From: Gammaproteobacteria bacterium Milos-ODIII6
GTDB lineage: Bacteria; Pseudomonadota; Gammaproteobacteria; Chromatiales; Chromatiaceae
Direction: 5' to 3'
NCBI GenBank assembly: GCA_029228645.1
Contig: JAPTHR010000001.1
Span: 1-64,000 of the forward strand
DNA: 64,000 nt
The stretch's first letter is position 1. Every line of letters begins with the position of its first letter. The notes beneath the pieces were generated by a model. It was not told the DNA's origin. It was given only the letters and a program-made list of their open reading frames with translations, and did not search any database. Shown one piece after another: positions 18,522 to 25,017 of this stretch. A program made the translations under genes and the position numbers.

Positions 18522-19331
18522 TCAGAAACCGCGTTCCCGCTTGATCCGTTCGTAGGCCTGCTTGATCTCGTGGGTCTTCTGCGCCGCCACGCGCATCATC
18601 TCCTCCGGCAGCCCCTTGGAAACCAGCTTGTCGGGGTGATGCCGACTGAGCAGTCGACGATAGGCCTTCTTGACCTGCGCATCGCTCGCGCCGGCATCGA
18701 CGCCGAGTACCTGGTAGGCCTGCTCCAGGCCGGGCTGCCCCCCCTTGGAGCCCGCCCCGGAGCCGGCCGCCTCGAAGGCCGCGCCCACAAGCCCCTGCAG
18801 GCGCCGATACTCGACCTCGGATATCCCCAGCAGGTGGCAGATGCGCCGCAGCAGGGCATCCTCGCTGGCATGCAGACGGCCGTCGGCATACGCGGCCTGG
18901 AGTTGGATCTCGAGGAACATTGCCAGCAGGGTGGTGCGGCGGGCGCATTCCGCACGGAACTGCCGGACCACGTCCTCGAGCGGAAAGCCGGACTTCTTGC
19001 CCTCGTTGAACAGGCGGATGGCGGTCTTGCGCATGTCCGCGGACAGGTCCATCTGCCCCATGACCGTCTCGGCCAGGCGGATCTCTTCGGGCGAGACACG
19101 CCCGTCGGCCTTGACGACCGCGCCCATGACGCTGAAGGTCGCCGTGAAGAACGCCGTCTGGACCCGTTCCCGATCGCCGGGAGAGAAATCCCCTGGCGCA
19201 AAACCGCCCTCCGGGAGTCCCTTCAACCCCTTGTCGAAGTTGTGCCCGAGCGCCACACCCAGGATCGCGCCCAGGGGGCCGCCAAGCATGAAACCCAGCG
19301 CCCCGCCGACCAGTTTGCCCCACCAGCTCAT
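18522..19331 (-). CDS. djlA: Membrane-anchored co-chaperone DjlA
   Basis: DjlA activates DnaK at the inner membrane. The 269-residue protein has a Gly-rich N-terminal membrane segment (LVGGALGFMLGGPLGAILGVALG, residues 7-29), a central TerB-like helical domain (VKADGRVSPEEIRLAETVM, near 73-91) and a C-terminal J domain with the HPD motif in RRLLSRHHPDKL (near 230). The length matches E. coli DjlA (271). It is followed on the same strand by the DUF350 and transglycosylase genes after a 128-base gap. Confidence 0.95.
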   Translation of the reverse strand: MSWWGKLVGGALGFMLGGPLGAILGVALGHNFDKGLKGLPEGGFAPGDFSPGDRERVQTAFFTATFSVMGAVVKADGRVSPEEIRLAETVMGQMDLSADMRKTAIRLFNEGKKSGFPLEDVVRQFRAECARRTTLLAMFLEIQLQAAYADGRLHASEDALLRRICHLLGISEVEYRRLQGLVGAAFEAAGSGAGSKGGQPGLEQAYQVLGVDAGASDAQVKKAYRRLLSRHHPDKLVSKGLPEEMMRVAAQKTHEIKQAYERIKRERGF

Positions 19332-19347: not shown

Positions 19348-20007
19348 TCATCGACTCAGGTACTCCTCATCGCGGAAGGACCAGACCCATTGTGGGCGCA
19401 GGGTCACAAGTACCGTGATGATGATGCCATTGAAGAAGGCCTCTGGGAAAAGCATCAGCGGGATCAGGATCATTACGTCGTCGCGCAGGGGTGGCCAGGC
19501 CTGTCCGGCCAACACCAACAAAGCAACCGTGGCCAATACCCCCATGGCTGCAACCAGCGCGCCGCAGAAGAAGGCATCCACAAAGACGTACACGAAGAAG
19601 TGCTTCGGCAGATAGGCCCGCACCAGCCCGAGGACCAGCTGGGTCAGGACCGCCGGCAGGATCACCAGCACCCAGAGGGTCGGAACCACGGAGGCCAACT
19701 CGTTGAGCCCGGCCACCACCAGCGCCAGCTGGGCCACCAGGCCCGCCAGCAACGCCAGCGACCATCCCCAGGCCAGGGTGATGAAGACCATCCCGGAGAG
19801 ATGCCACACGATGCCCGCGTGCACATCGGTGCGCAGCGTCCACATCAGCATCAGGACCACGATACTGCCGAAATAGGCGCCGGATACGCCTTCCCGCGCC
19901 AGGCGCCCGAAGTCGGCCCAGCGAACGGCATACCAGTACAGCGGCGCAAGCGCGACAAGCATGCCCCACCACCAGGAATCGGAAAACAACTGCGAGGAGA
20001 GTTCCAT
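19348..20007 (-). CDS. CbiM-like membrane protein (COG3235 type)
   Basis: This 219-residue protein is almost entirely hydrophobic with about six membrane segments. It resembles the predicted ECF-type permease family related to CbiM/NikM. Candidate metal-binding positions are His residues in RTDVHAGIVWHLSGM (near residues 58-72). The C-terminus is short and charged (RDEEYLSR). No CbiN, CbiQ or CbiO partner is nearby, so it stands alone. CbiM proteins take up cobalt or nickel, but the cargo of this subgroup is not known. It lies 16 bases upstream of djlA on the same strand. Confidence 0.72.
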   Translation of the reverse strand: MELSSQLFSDSWWWGMLVALAPLYWYAVRWADFGRLAREGVSGAYFGSIVVLMLMWTLRTDVHAGIVWHLSGMVFITLAWGWSLALLAGLVAQLALVVAGLNELASVVPTLWVLVILPAVLTQLVLGLVRAYLPKHFFVYVFVDAFFCGALVAAMGVLATVALLVLAGQAWPPLRDDVMILIPLMLFPEAFFNGIIITVLVTLRPQWVWSFRDEEYLSR

Positions 20008-20159: not shown

Positions 20160-20381
20160 ATGATTCGTCACTACGACATCGTTACCGGAGAACGGATCGA
20201 ACAAGCCGAGTCGGCGCCGACGCAGCGCGACCCGATCACCATCACGCCGGTGGAGGAACGCCTCGCGCGCTGGGAAGAGAGCCCCCGGCAGAGCACGGCA
20301 GTCCGCAGCGGCATGCCGCCGGACCTGCTCGACGCCGACATCGCGGGCTTGCTCAGAAACTGGCAGCACCCGGGGTCATAG
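20160..20381 (+). CDS. Small protein of unknown function
   Basis: I do not recognise this 73-residue hydrophilic protein. It is rich in Arg, Thr and Pro in the middle (QRDPITITPVEERLARWEES) and has a short helical end (DLLDADIAGLLRNWQ). A strong AAGGAG site lies 7 bases before the ATG, which is the main reason to accept it. Its last 6 bases overlap the convergent Rieske gene. Confidence 0.55.
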   Translation: MIRHYDIVTGERIEQAESAPTQRDPITITPVEERLARWEESPRQSTAVRSGMPPDLLDADIAGLLRNWQHPGS

Positions 20382-20720
20382 CGCGGAGATATCCACGCGG
20401 ATGCGCCCCTCGCTCACCTCGAGGGGCAGCGCGTCGAGGGATTGTCCGACACAGGGGCCGCGCAGGCAGTGGCCATCGCGCACCCGGAACAGCGCCCCGT
20501 GCAGGGCGCACTGGATGAAGCCGTTGTCGACATCCAGAAACTGGTGTGGCTGCCATTCCAGAGGCGCACCGGTATGCGGGCAGCGGTTACGGAAGGCCAT
20601 CACCTGACCCTCCTTGCGTACCACGAAGAAGCTGGCGCCGGCGCCTTCACGCAGGGCGAATCCGCGGCTGCCGGGCTCATCGATGGACTCCAGCGGCCCG
20701 GCATCGAACCATTCACTCAT
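20376..20720 (-). CDS. Rieske [2Fe-2S] ferredoxin
   Basis: This 114-residue soluble protein has both cluster-binding boxes: C47 and H49 in RCPHTGAPL, and C71 and H74 in CALHGALF. It lacks a signal peptide or membrane anchor, so it acts in the cytosol as an electron carrier or as a small Rieske-type subunit. The start at 20720 is preferred. It overlaps the stop of the PfkB kinase gene by 4 bases, which places it downstream of the kinase and the rhodanese scaffold in one transcript. Confidence 0.88.
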   Translation of the reverse strand: MSEWFDAGPLESIDEPGSRGFALREGAGASFFVVRKEGQVMAFRNRCPHTGAPLEWQPHQFLDVDNGFIQCALHGALFRVRDGHCLRGPCVGQSLDALPLEVSEGRIRVDISAL

Positions 20721-21562
20721 AAACCCAGGCCCTCCCGGCCACACTGCTCGCCGGCGAGACGATTGGCCTGCGACAGCGCCTGCGCCATGGGCGCGCCCCG
20801 GGTGATCGCGTGCAGCAGTCCCGCGTTGAACACGTCGCCCGCTCCCAGGGTATCGATGACCCTGTCCGGACGATGCGCCTGCACGCGCACAATGTTGCCT
20901 TCGAAATCGCGCGCCAGGGCGCCTTGTTCGCCAAGGGTGCAGGTCGCCATGCCACCGCCAGGCAAGCCCTGCAGCAGCTCCTCAGGGCGCCCACCACGGG
21001 TGCGCAGATAATCGTTCGAGAACATCAACAGGTCGGCCTCGGCAAAAAGCCCTTCTATGCCCTCACGCGGCTTTTCGACCTCGAGTGACACCGGCATGCC
21101 ACACATGCCGCGCGCACGCCCGAGCATGGGTTTCAACTGGTCCACCGCGCGTCCCTCGAAATGAACCCAGTCAAAGGCACGCAGATCGATGGCGTCGAAG
21201 GCCTCCGCCCTGTACTCGGGCAGGTCCCGATAGTGCACGATACTGCGGCTGCCGGTGGCGCGGCTGAGGGTGACATAGGAGGTCGGCATATGCGCACCCG
21301 GCACAACGGCCGCGTGACTTGTATCCACGCCATGCTGGGCGAAGGTCTCGGTTGCCAACCCGGCGTCCGGGCCGTCACCCAGGTTGCCCGCCCAGGCAGC
21401 CGCGTCTCCAAGCTGGGTGAGCATGATCGCGGTGTTGGCCGCATTACCACCGAGCCGGACCTGCTGCTGCAGCGCACGCACTTCGCTGTCCTCGGGTGGA
21501 TAGCTGGCTACGTGATTGATGATGTCGATGGTCGCGATGCCCACGCACAGGATTCGCGGCAT
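20717..21562 (-). CDS. PfkB-family carbohydrate kinase
   Basis: This 281-residue sugar kinase starts MPRILCVGIATIDIINHV. The N-terminal GG motif is QVRLGGNAANTAIML (near residue 38), and the catalytic base and anion hole are in DTLGAGDVFNAGLLHA (near 245). The closest layout known to me is ketohexokinase or fructokinase-like PfkB proteins of gammaproteobacteria. The exact sugar is not evident. The chosen ATG at 21562 lies 10 bases downstream of the scaffold gene stop. The Rieske gene overlaps its end. The trio looks like one operon. Confidence 0.85.
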   Translation of the reverse strand: MPRILCVGIATIDIINHVASYPPEDSEVRALQQQVRLGGNAANTAIMLTQLGDAAAWAGNLGDGPDAGLATETFAQHGVDTSHAAVVPGAHMPTSYVTLSRATGSRSIVHYRDLPEYRAEAFDAIDLRAFDWVHFEGRAVDQLKPMLGRARGMCGMPVSLEVEKPREGIEGLFAEADLLMFSNDYLRTRGGRPEELLQGLPGGGMATCTLGEQGALARDFEGNIVRVQAHRPDRVIDTLGAGDVFNAGLLHAITRGAPMAQALSQANRLAGEQCGREGLGL

Positions 21563-21572
21563 AGGTATCTTT

Positions 21573-24278
21573 TTACCCGAACAGAGAGCTGAAGAACTCA
21601 CCCCGTCCCGCGACAAACGAAAGCACCTCGACCAACAGGATGACCGCCGCGCCACCGGCGACGGCGGGAACCAGCCTGGCAACCCAGGCTGCGCGCCCGA
21701 GGGTTTCGACGTCCAGGGGACGGGAGCCGAAGTCGGCACCTTCGTCCCTGACGTCGCCCAGGTCAAGTTCCAGTGCGTGCTGCTGCAGCTGCTTGAGTTC
21801 CTCCTCCAGCCGCGCCTGCGCATCGCGTGATGCCTTCTCGCCCTGTTGCGCGGTGCTTACCTCCTGCGAGACCTGTTCGAGCTGGATGCGCAGGCGATCG
21901 AGTTCGGCGTGGTTGTCCTCGAGCGAATCCTCGAGCTGATGCCGGGTTTCCTCGGCCTGCGCCAGGGCGGCCTGGCGCTCCTTGAGTGACTGCTGCACAT
22001 CATGCAAGTCCTGACGCATTGCCTCGACATCGGCCGGGTCAGGACTGCTCGACAGACGCTCCCGGGCCTGGCGCAATTCGCTTCGCAGGGTCTCGATCTG
22101 CGCATGCAGGCCGTGCAGCTCACGTTCGTCTTCTTCCTGTGCAAGCTGGATATCCCTGGCCGAGCGAATCTGCTCCACGTACGCCTCCATGACGGCACGC
22201 AGTTCCTCCACCTCGGCCTGGCGTTGTTCGAGCCTGGAGACGAGCTGGGCGTTCTCTTCCTGCAGGATCGCATGCGCCTCACGTGTCTGCGTCAGGTCCG
22301 CCTGCACCTCGGCGAGTTGCTCCTCGAGCCCGCTGACACGCGTTTCGTCGAGCGCGGCCGGAGCCGCCTCCTGCGCTTGCGTGCACTGCAGCGCAGCGAG
22401 TTGCTCCTGCAGCCCGCCCATCTGCGCCTGCATCTCCGTTAGCTGCGCGTCACGCGCAGCCACCGCTTGCTCCCCCGTATCCAGCAGCGTCTGCAGATGC
22501 GCCACTTCGCCGCGCAGTGATTCGAGCTCGATATCCTTCTCGGCCGCTGCCGCTGAATCGTTCGCCGAAGGCTCCGCCGATGGCTCCCGGGTCACCGGGC
22601 CCGCAGCACGCACCTCCTCGAGATCACTCTGCGCCTGCTCCAGTTCGAGCCGCAGGCAGGTCACCTCCTCCTTGAGTTCTCCCCGCTCGCGGGCATGCTG
22701 ATCCCTCTCGATCTCGCGATCCTGCATGACCTCGTTCAGGCGTTGAGCGATCTCCTCGAGGCTCTCGGCTGCAGACTCGGCGCGTTCGCGTTCGCCGATA
22801 AGCTCCCGCTCGGCCTTCTGCAGGCGGGATTGCAGTTTCTTGTCCAGACCCTCTATCTCGCGCATGCGATCCGCGAGTTCGGTTCGCTCCGATGTCAGCT
22901 GCTCGAGACTCGAGGTCAGCTCCTCCATCTCGGAGTAGGCCTTCTGCGCATCCGCAAGCGCGGCCTGCTTCTCCTCTTCCGTGGCGCGCAGCCGCTCGCG
23001 CGCGCTGTCCACGGCGCCGCGCAACTCCACCAGGTGCTCCTGTTTTTCCTGCTCGACGTCCTGAACCGAGGCCTCGGCTGCCTTGAGCTGATTCTCCAGT
23101 TCATGCGCCCGCCGCTCCGCCTCGAGCACACGCTGCTGCAGTTCGGACGACGCCTCGCTCGCCGCCACGTCGGCCGGCTTGGCAGTACCCGTTTGGGCCG
23201 CGCTCGGCTTCGGTTGCTCCTCGCGCAGGCGCTGCAGCCCGCCCTTCAGCATCGAGACATCGAAGCCCTGGTCGATCATCAGGTAGGCGGCCACGGCAGA
23301 GCGGCCGCCGCTGTTGCTGTACAGGACGTAATGCCGCTCCGGCGCCAGGCTTGACAGCTGGTAGCGCAGCGACTCGATCGGCAGGTTCACGCTGCCGGGA
23401 AAGTGGTCCTTCTCATACTCCCCGGGTGAACGCAGGTCGATCCACACCGCGCCCTTTTCGACCTTCTGCACCGCCTCGTCGAAGTCGATGTGTTTCGCCA
23501 GGGGGCTTTTGACCAACTCCAGGAAATCGCTTTTTGCCAGGCGCAGCACCTGACCCGCTGTCAGCATGGTAATAGTCGAGTTACGCGGCTTGTCCGACAG
23601 CAGCGCCTCCTCGCCGAAGGAATTGCCGGGACCGAGTTGTGCGATTTCCTGCGGCTGCTTGTCATCCGCATCGACGCGGGTGACCAGAGCGCGCCCCTGC
23701 ACCAGCATGTAGAAATAGTCCCCGGGGTCGCCCTGGCGGATAATCTCCTCACCCTGCGGGACCTCGACTTCACTGATGCTCATCATGAGCCGCTGGATGT
23801 TGGAAGCGGGCAGTTGCTGCAGCACGGGCGAGCGCAGCAACAGGCTCATCCAGTCGTCGGAATCGACCTCTTCGAAATTATCGACCTCGTAAGCGACCTG
23901 ATCGTTGCGCGCCAACAACTCGCTGATCCGGCGCGTATCGATGCACGCGACCCGCACCCGGGAGTCGGCTCGCACGCTGTTCTTGCGCGGCAGGACATGC
24001 GCGATCGGAAAACGCGCGCTCTCCTCGCCGGCGGCGACGCTGTCCACAACCTGTCCGCCTTCGAGCAGCGACACCTTGCCTTCCAGCAGGTAATAGTTCA
24101 GTTGCTCGGTGTCACCTTCCTGCAGCAGCACCGTATTCCTGGTAACCGTCTCGATCTGCAGCCCCTGAATCAAATCGGCAAAGACCTCTTCCGGCAGGGT
24201 ATGAATCGGCACCATGTTGCGCAGGCGCTGAATATCCTTGACTGCAAAACCGGGCTTGAGAGGATCGACACTGGCCAT
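21573..24278 (-). CDS. Cyclic nucleotide-binding / rhodanese / coiled-coil membrane-anchored protein
   Basis: This 901-residue protein has five parts. The first cyclic-nucleotide-binding-like domain (about 13-130) lacks the FGE..R phosphate-binding motif. The second (about 150-260) keeps it as SFGEEALLSDKPRNST. A rhodanese domain follows (about 262-355; WIDLRSPGEYEKDHFPGS), but the catalytic Cys is Ser321 (VLYSNSGGRS, AGC codon at 23316-23318). A Glu/Gln/Leu-rich coiled coil runs from about 375 to 835. A single hydrophobic segment near 868-890 anchors the C-terminus. There is no signal peptide, so the bulk should be cytosolic. The start at 24278 follows an AAGGA site. It heads an operon with a PfkB kinase and a Rieske protein. 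It probably works as a cyclic-nucleotide-responsive scaffold and not as a sulfurtransferase. That role is an inference. Confidence 0.85.
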   Translation of the reverse strand: MASVDPLKPGFAVKDIQRLRNMVPIHTLPEEVFADLIQGLQIETVTRNTVLLQEGDTEQLNYYLLEGKVSLLEGGQVVDSVAAGEESARFPIAHVLPRKNSVRADSRVRVACIDTRRISELLARNDQVAYEVDNFEEVDSDDWMSLLLRSPVLQQLPASNIQRLMMSISEVEVPQGEEIIRQGDPGDYFYMLVQGRALVTRVDADDKQPQEIAQLGPGNSFGEEALLSDKPRNSTITMLTAGQVLRLAKSDFLELVKSPLAKHIDFDEAVQKVEKGAVWIDLRSPGEYEKDHFPGSVNLPIESLRYQLSSLAPERHYVLYSNSGGRSAVAAYLMIDQGFDVSMLKGGLQRLREEQPKPSAAQTGTAKPADVAASEASSELQQRVLEAERRAHELENQLKAAEASVQDVEQEKQEHLVELRGAVDSARERLRATEEEKQAALADAQKAYSEMEELTSSLEQLTSERTELADRMREIEGLDKKLQSRLQKAERELIGERERAESAAESLEEIAQRLNEVMQDREIERDQHARERGELKEEVTCLRLELEQAQSDLEEVRAAGPVTREPSAEPSANDSAAAAEKDIELESLRGEVAHLQTLLDTGEQAVAARDAQLTEMQAQMGGLQEQLAALQCTQAQEAAPAALDETRVSGLEEQLAEVQADLTQTREAHAILQEENAQLVSRLEQRQAEVEELRAVMEAYVEQIRSARDIQLAQEEDERELHGLHAQIETLRSELRQARERLSSSPDPADVEAMRQDLHDVQQSLKERQAALAQAEETRHQLEDSLEDNHAELDRLRIQLEQVSQEVSTAQQGEKASRDAQARLEEELKQLQQHALELDLGDVRDEGADFGSRPLDVETLGRAAWVARLVPAVAGGAAVILLVEVLSFVAGRGEFFSSLFG

Positions 24279-24624: not shown

Positions 24625-25017
24625 ATGGCACTGAAAAAGAAGGTCGCAAAGAAGAAAGTGACCAAGAAAGCAGCAGCAGCCCCGGCCAAGAAGATCAAGG
24701 CCATCGGCACCAAGCAAACCAAGACCCAGGTGATCGCCAGCGTCGCCGAATCCACCGGCCTCAGCAAAGTCCAGGTGGCGAGCGTGTTCTCCGAGCTGGG
24801 CGACCTGATCACCGCTCACATGAAGCGTCGCGGATCGGGCGAGTTCACCATCCCGGACACCGGCGTCAAGGTCCGGCGCGTGAAGAAGCCCGCGCGCAAG
24901 TCACGCATGGGACGTAATCCCGCCACTGGCGAGCCGATGAAGATCGCGGCCAAGCCGGCTTCCACCGTGGTGCGCGTGTCCGCGCTGAAGGCGCTCAAGG
25001 ACACCATCAACGCCTGA
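24625..25017 (+). CDS. HU-family nucleoid protein with Lys-rich N-terminal extension
   Basis: This 130-residue protein joins a Lys/Ala-rich tail (residues 2-28, ALKKKVAKKKVTKKAAAAPA) to an HU/IHF-like DNA-bending domain (about 32-128). The DNA-binding arm carries GEFTIPDTGVKVRRVKKPAR and RMGRNPATGEPMKI, as in HU. The tail resembles histone H1-type extensions seen in some proteobacterial HU proteins and should add DNA binding. An AGGAG site precedes the ATG at 24625, and a strong terminator follows the stop. The gene stands alone as its own transcription unit. Confidence 0.9.
   Translation: MALKKKVAKKKVTKKAAAAPAKKIKAIGTKQTKTQVIASVAESTGLSKVQVASVFSELGDLITAHMKRRGSGEFTIPDTGVKVRRVKKPARKSRMGRNPATGEPMKIAAKPASTVVRVSALKALKDTINA

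Follow-up and report, generated by a model that had tools for sequence, protein, structure and literature searches.

A candidate membrane-tethered scaffold with two CNB domains and a pseudo-rhodanese, and the apparent decay of its active site by several routes

A gene on the minus strand of contig JAPTHR010000001.1 of Gammaproteobacteria bacterium Milos-ODIII6 (Chromatiaceae; assembly GCA_029228645.1) encodes a protein of 901 residues, in which two cyclic-nucleotide-binding (CNB) domains are followed by a rhodanese domain, a long coiled coil and a C-terminal segment that resembles a transmembrane (TM) helix. The window is the whole stretch analysed, positions 1 to 64,000 of this contig (64,000 nucleotides). 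The rhodanese loop of the protein reads YSNSGGRS where YCxxGxR is expected, so that residue 321, the site of the catalytic Cys, is Ser. Comparison with relatives indicates that this Ser is old, having been fixed early in a group of four genera, and that it is one of several routes along which the active site has decayed in the tailed proteins of the window's family. The reading to which we lean, with a slightly better than even chance, is that the protein is a membrane-tethered, cyclic AMP (cAMP)-responsive scaffold with a non-catalytic rhodanese.

Ser321 in the window protein and its close relatives

The open reading frame (ORF) list and the translation place the ATG at 24278 and the stop codon at 21573-21575. 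An earlier note on this DNA, made from its letters alone, had given the interval and the residue correctly (codon 321, AGC in the sense of the gene, occupies 23316-23318). The note had omitted the strand, which is minus; frame 1 of the plus strand is interrupted by stops. Its assignment of two CNB domains and a rhodanese is borne out by Pfam: cNMP_binding (PF00027) matches in 2 stretches (1.5e-30; 105.4 bits against a cut-off of 27.5), and Rhodanese (PF00581) matches residues 267-350 (7.2e-14; 52.5 bits against a cut-off of 22.2). The features of the gene, all on the minus strand, are as follows.

21573..24278, minus: candidate scaffold ORF, 901 residues, stop included, with the order CNB1, CNB2, pseudo-rhodanese, coiled coil, C-terminal TM-like segment (ORF list, translation, Pfam)
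23889..24230, minus: CNB1, about residues 17-130, without the FGE cassette (Pfam and model; approximate boundaries set by the analyst)
23505..23852, minus: CNB2, about residues 143-258 (best Pfam stretch 171-257, and model; boundaries approximate)
23574..23618, minus: phosphate-binding cassette of CNB2, FGEEALLSDKPRNST, residues 221-235 (head alignment)
23229..23495, minus: rhodanese domain, about residues 262-350 (Pfam 267-350, and model)
23301..23318, minus: former catalytic loop SNSGGR, residues 321-326, with the Ser321 codon AGC at 23316-23318 (translation, alignment)
21741..23141, minus: long helical or coiled-coil region, residues 380-846 (AlphaFold2 helices; hydrophobic periodicity 3.45-3.5)
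21609..21665, minus: C-terminal hydrophobic segment, probable TM helix, residues 872-890 (hydropathy; the model has low confidence there)

The two CNB domains and the rhodanese are here called the head. In a first search, which covered 55 relatives, YSNSGGR was found in all six genomes of the genus that have a full head, the window's own and G002 to G006, and the five relatives are 58-68% identical to the window head. No full-length head match was found in the other two genomes, G001 and G007 (best E 5.6e-13 and 2.3e-13). More widely, all 16 members of genera g1, g77, g60 and g65 have Ser321, with codon AGC in each; Arg326 is kept in 15 of these members and Gly324 in 14. The four genera form one starred clade (15 dereplicated rows) in trees that omit the loop columns. 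The tabulation of residue 321 that the earlier note had recommended thus gives Ser in 6/6 homologues of the genus and in 16/16 of the four-genus clade, and indicates that Ser321 was fixed early in this group.

A sequencing error, a frameshift or a mutation specific to this strain is hardly credible as an explanation, since the same Ser with the same codon recurs in 16/16 sequences from four genera, with frames that are open through the head. The earlier note had named a close homologue with Cys, a Ser confined to this strain and an error at 23316-23318 as facts that would tell against its idea; none of these was found. Two further suggestions were also rejected. Ser is not unique to the window protein, because Ser with Arg also occurs in three tailed proteins of other families (L202, L209 and L211). 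Codon switching provides no proof of selection, because all 18 Ser rows tabulated use AGY (16 AGC and 2 AGT).

Loop states and trees of the tailed relatives

Relatives of the head, whose named members include gammaproteobacterial metagenome-assembled genomes, comprise 174 distinct heads sorted by tail. The rows are loci that were fetched, a subset of the matches, and the counts below are counts among the matches listed. The loci came from 30 automatic choices plus 20 stretches, 30 automatic plus 60, and 30 automatic (partly overlapping) plus 40, together with L081-L084; the last 40 stretches were picked for long frames, so that tailed forms of other families are over-sampled. Heads of less than 300 residues (L028, L029, L049, L141 and L146) were left out, as was L085. 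Three Gly-loop rows in which no tail can be seen, L042 (lying at the end of its contig) and L071 and L095 (where the frame ends early), were counted as tailed; they were excluded from the 134-row tree and the 170-head alignment, and the alignment also excludes the tailed row of g26. In L095 (G106) and L071 (G162), the frames stop soon after a Gly-type head whose close relatives are long-tailed, which may reflect a frameshift, a pseudogene or an assembly error. The trees are quick ones with SH-like approximate likelihood-ratio (SH-aLRT) supports only, and many of their inner forks are weak.

The state of the loop differs sharply among three sets of proteins. Short CNB-CNB-rhodanese proteins of the same class (about 350-400 residues) have the same head, with 31-39% identity in the first search, but lack a tail, and the 48 that were fetched all keep both Cys and Arg. 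Among tailed proteins of other families, the pair is kept in 40/51, with Cys without Arg in 8 and Ser with Arg in the 3 named above. In the window's family, however, 74 of 75 tailed proteins lack Cys, Arg or both (71/72 when L042, L071 and L095 are set aside), and the pair is intact in 1/75. The commonest loops of these 75 are Gly without Arg (28), Cys without Arg (25) and Ser with Arg (15); the rest have Ser without Arg (3), Ala (2, one with Arg) or Asp (1). The sole family row with Cys and Arg, L104 of g26, groups with family f138, and thus may be the product of transfer or contamination. The window protein itself falls in one clade with the tailed CNB-CNB-rhodanese-coil forms. Together, these comparisons indicate that in the tailed clade of the family the active site has decayed along several routes, of which the window's Ser is one. 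The stronger claim that a tail causes the loss of the active site was rejected, given the 40/51 intact loops of other families. One of the Ser-bearing proteins from elsewhere, L202:922-7020 of family f76, is an FGE-tailed homologue far from the window's clade, whose loop, SDTGQR, is canonical apart from the Ser for Cys.

How much of this decay was selected has to be weighed against the possibility that the rhodanese is simply a leftover. In this account of plain relaxed decay, the domain does no more than fold, what is useful is CNB2 together with coil and anchor (or coil plus FGE domain in relatives), and Ser, Gly, Ala, Asp and the losses of Arg are neutral end states. The many end states at a single site fit it: the 134-row tree needs at least 12 changes of residue 321, 8 between Cys and not-Cys, 5 of the Ser state and 6 of the intact Cys/Arg pair. 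In addition, frames that end FGE-like but have no head precede PfkB in genera g12, g26 and g72, suggesting that the head is dispensable there, and across the 13 rows from g1 and g77 only 22/89 rhodanese positions never vary, versus 48/116 in CNB2. Yet Ser321 and Arg326 are themselves among those 22 positions, and D281 and R283, which are conserved in the rhodaneses of the set, are present in 71/71 tailed family rows examined. The low dN/dS of the closest pair also argues against neutrality: in L032/L033, the pair with the least synonymous divergence, the rhodanese has a nonsynonymous divergence (dN) of 0.015 and a synonymous divergence (dS) of 0.28 (other pairs are far more diverged synonymously, many of them near saturation). 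Within the genus, pairwise identity averages 74.7% in the rhodanese, 72.8% in CNB2 and 61.6% in CNB1; the g77 values are 71.3, 83.1 and 64.2%, respectively. These figures indicate that the rhodanese domain is under constraint, and we regard plain relaxed decay as possible, though on the unlikely side. The earlier note had held that a fixed Ser within a conserved loop would amount to a selected change. Ser is indeed fixed, and the loop Arg is kept in 15/16, but the data point only weakly to selection on Ser itself.

A quite different proposal, which develops the earlier note's idea of a cyclic-nucleotide-gated scaffold that may hold persulfide or phosphate in the dead pocket, is that the Ser loop has been selected as a cAMP-gated reader of anions or persulfides, in which the Arg326 loop would bind phosphate, a phosphoprotein, thiosulfate or persulfide with no turnover, by the logic of a substrate trap. 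The retention of Arg with Ser, in 15/16 rows of the Ser clade and 3/51 tailed proteins of other families, counts in favour of such a reader, and contrasts with the frequent Cys without Arg elsewhere in the family (25/75). There is also a precedent among pseudophosphatases, since PMC8907265 describes MK-STYX, with Cys changed to Ser, and STYX, with Cys changed to Gly. These are the same nucleophile replacements as the two commonest here, Ser and Gly, but they lie in the DUSP domain (HCx5R motif) rather than in a rhodanese/CH2 domain. However, the Gly forms (28/75) never have Arg and often have acidic loops (GEEVGQ), and so cannot be the same type of reader, and on the tree Arg may have been lost and then regained. 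As the loop has ended up in several states, Ser among them (the others being Gly, Ala, Asp and Cys without Arg), an anion reader specific to Ser is not the simplest reading, and we consider it decidedly improbable.

CNB domains, tail and gene neighbourhood

The second CNB domain has an intact cassette. It reads FGEEALLSDKPRN, with both the Glu (E223) and the Arg (R232) of the phosphate-binding cassette, and these residues are near-invariant, E223 being present in 168/170 and R232 in 166/170 heads examined. The spacing of its FGE..L..PR motif is that of the PKA cassette. In CNB1, no phosphate-binding cassette is present; the site reads ARFPIAHVLPR, without FGE, so that the earlier note was right to confine the cassette to CNB2. 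By inference from these residues, CNB2 should bind a cyclic nucleotide, and cAMP is its most likely ligand. A class I adenylate cyclase is encoded by 7/8 genomes of the genus, and a class III cyclase domain by 4/8; G007 has neither class and is also without the scaffold.

The head resembles tandem-CNB regulatory proteins, PKG and the PKA regulatory subunits. In a sequence profile search of the PDB, a multi-CNB Toxoplasma protein (9ya0) came top, followed by PKG and PKA chains, while the rhodanese part matched thiosulfate sulfurtransferase (1yt8) and CoA-persulfide reductase (8a56). An AlphaFold2 model of the head, built with 5 alignment rows, has a mean predicted local distance difference test (pLDDT) score of 77 and a predicted TM-score (pTM) of 0.43, and its order of strands and helices is consistent with two CNB domains and a rhodanese. 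With this model, Foldseek placed tandem-CNB structures of PKG and PKA first in the PDB, and by sequence and by fold the matches of the head are mostly tandem- or multi-CNB proteins. For the 50 Foldseek matches listed, the TM-score normalised to the query lies between 0.26 and 0.35, and thus the likeness is per domain and not of the whole arrangement. The two consecutive CNB domains are what the window protein shares with the PKG and PKA regulatory subunits. In contrast to these, its CNB1 lacks the FGE cassette, a rhodanese and a coiled coil follow, and no kinase domain was found among Pfam families at E up to 0.01.

Beyond the head, the full-length AlphaFold2 model predicts helices at 380-558, 572-638, 645-744 and 748-846, that is, a helical region with three short breaks. 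The helix blocks mostly have pLDDT 55-86, lower at the breaks, the pTM is 0.29 and the C-terminus is of low confidence; the alignment again had 5 rows, and the tail was modelled from the window sequence alone. Windows of 19 residues with a mean hydropathy of at least 1.6 begin only at 863-878, the best being 872-890 (2.29). These features agree with the earlier note, which had described about 460 residues of coiled coil and a C-terminal membrane segment. The segment is probably a TM helix and the protein probably membrane-tethered; a TM-like end is present in 10/11 Ser-clade members with a complete C-terminus in the fetched DNA (the exception is L103).

Many relatives end differently, in an FGE-sulfatase domain (PF03781), which is found in 32/93 C-terminal pieces of tailed relatives at E up to 0.001; a model built in this analysis finds 33 FGE-like ends. 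This domain does not match the whole window protein (E up to 0.01) or its C-terminal 300 residues. In the window's genus and g77 there is no FGE domain, and the TM-like segment is followed by similar residues. The CNB-CNB-rhodanese-coil-FGE proteins of other families share with the window protein the same head, a long tail and, in part, a PfkB gene directly downstream, but differ in the FGE-sulfatase end and in the loop, which is intact in 16/21. The comparison thus indicates a kinship with FGE-tailed forms that one genome alone cannot reveal. In true formylglycine enzymes, Cys residues lie in the stretch after RGG. No Cys follows the last RGG in 32/32 FGE ends, and the idea that the FGE tail is an active formylglycine enzyme was rejected. 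In L202 the stretch after the last RGG is short, and there is no Cys after the first RGG of its end either. Head-less frames of 508-836 residues that end FGE-like before PfkB were seen in g12, g26 and g72, in a single genome of each (L214, L215 and L218). By such comparisons, the locus before PfkB gains and loses both heads and end pieces. In families f81, f105, f106 and f119 (L191, L195, L198, L199, L201 and L203), two tailed CNB-CNB-rhodanese proteins lie close together, divergent or in tandem, and most of them end in a common motif like RIKxxAxxAKxxxxxxxxLLDEIAxxL.

The genes near the scaffold in the window are as follows.

20717..21553, minus: PfkB-family sugar kinase (ORF, Pfam 2.6e-32; ATG 21553 chosen by the analyst)
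20376..20723, minus: Rieske [2Fe-2S] protein, overlapping the end of pfkB (ORF, Pfam 1.6e-12)
19348..20007, minus: integral membrane protein, labelled 'ECF-like' by the analyst from its look (ORF); no Pfam or NCBIfam match above cut-off
18522..19331, minus: DjlA co-chaperone with TerB and J domains (Pfam; NCBIfam equivalog 2.3e-94)
24625..25017, plus: divergent neighbour, HU-like DNA-binding protein with a Lys/Ala-rich N-terminus (ORF; the name is the analyst's reading)

The chosen ATG of pfkB lies 19 bp downstream of the scaffold stop codon. With denominators that count rows with enough flank, a PfkB gene follows on the same strand within 1.2 kb in 16/45 family tailed loci, 11/47 tailed loci of other families and 0/46 short loci, the last being a further difference between the short and the tailed proteins. 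A Rieske gene lies within 2 kb in 18/40, 8/34 and 0/20, respectively, and a divergent HU-like gene within 3.5 kb upstream in 32/41, 1/13 and 0/8. The loci that adjoin PfkB belong to genera g1, g11, g57, g62 and g8 in the family and to seven families outside it (f2, f42, f44, f58, f72, f108 and f138). The loci of g4, g80 and g81 lack PfkB, and 4/5 complete g77 loci have Rieske without PfkB. Thus, the operon with PfkB and Rieske proposed by the earlier note holds insofar as both adjoin the window gene and tailed homologues of other families, but they do not always do so, and a constant operon is too strong a term. The neighbourhood, as the compared loci indicate, is common to distant tailed forms yet not universal. 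Within the genus, PfkB (E up to 1e-30) occurs in exactly the six scaffold-bearing genomes, neither gene occurring in G001 or G007; across the wider family, many genomes that lack a full head have PfkB as well.

The window's own genome encodes a second cyclic-nucleotide/rhodanese fusion, of the persulfide-reductase type. This protein of 916 residues (L141:5713-8460, G000:C2) has pyridine-nucleotide-disulphide oxidoreductase domains, a CNB and two rhodanese stretches, and its C-terminal rhodanese has an intact loop, YCHAGKRS.

A possible cAMP-responsive scaffold

In the scaffold reading, the head would be organised like a regulatory subunit in which the cassette of CNB1 has been lost and that of CNB2 is full. 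The third domain, a rhodanese that has presumably lost sulfur transfer, would still fold and would serve for interaction or relay, placed as it is between CNB2 and the coiled coil. The coiled coil, together with the TM segment at the C-terminus, would hold the head to the membrane. When cAMP occupies CNB2, this domain would pack differently against the rhodanese, which would in turn change the face that binds a partner. Such a partner may be encoded in the gene cluster itself, for example PfkB or the Rieske protein.

A search of the literature for this domain order gave no description of such a protein, though a review of the rhodanese superfamily may cover relatives. The inactive rhodaneses with a worked-out role are, to our knowledge, eukaryotic. 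The rhodanese of TBC1D23 is reported to have no measurable activity and to be part of a golgin-binding platform (PMC7274447), while that of USP8, without Cys, takes part in protein binding (PMC12057046). In both, an inactive rhodanese fold is involved in protein binding, as proposed here. They differ from the window protein in being eukaryotic, in having other partners and no CNB domain and, for TBC1D23, in retaining a buried Cys and Arg. PMC7274447 also reports that, in the enzymes used as controls, TSTD1 (C79S) and CDC25B (C473S), a Cys-to-Ser change abolished activity.

Several observations weigh against the scaffold reading. A tail without loss of the active site is common, the pair being intact in 40/51 tailed proteins from other families. 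Tails arose on only one or two occasions, too few for an independent-pairs test of tail and active-site loss (1 pair on starred branches, 2 on all). Both Cys to Ser and Cys to Gly take a single base change, and therefore the Ser may be a tolerated accident. Tail length ranges from 75 to more than 1,500 residues, unlike that of a rigid relay. In 29 of the 45 family loci whose flank is long enough, no PfkB stands directly downstream. Model quality is moderate, and the Foldseek TM-scores are those given above. Finally, the cyclases prove nothing about this protein, since G001 matches both class I and class III and yet has no scaffold.

The window protein could also belong to a bacterial family of cAMP-gated pseudo-rhodaneses, in which the rhodanese of a membrane-tethered CNB-CNB-rhodanese-coil protein changed from an enzyme into a module for signal relay or anion reading, with Ser and a kept Arg, in parallel in several lineages. 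We put this forward tentatively, as an unlikely reading. The recurring cluster of scaffold, PfkB and Rieske unites domains of cyclic-nucleotide, sulfur and redox type. On one type of head, the relatives provide a natural series of intact loop, Cys without Arg, Ser with Arg, Gly, Ala and Asp, so that the role of the dead rhodanese can be asked by comparing or swapping heads. Having apparently lost its active site by several routes and yet been retained, the rhodanese of this family would be a good subject in which to learn what a dead enzyme domain may do.

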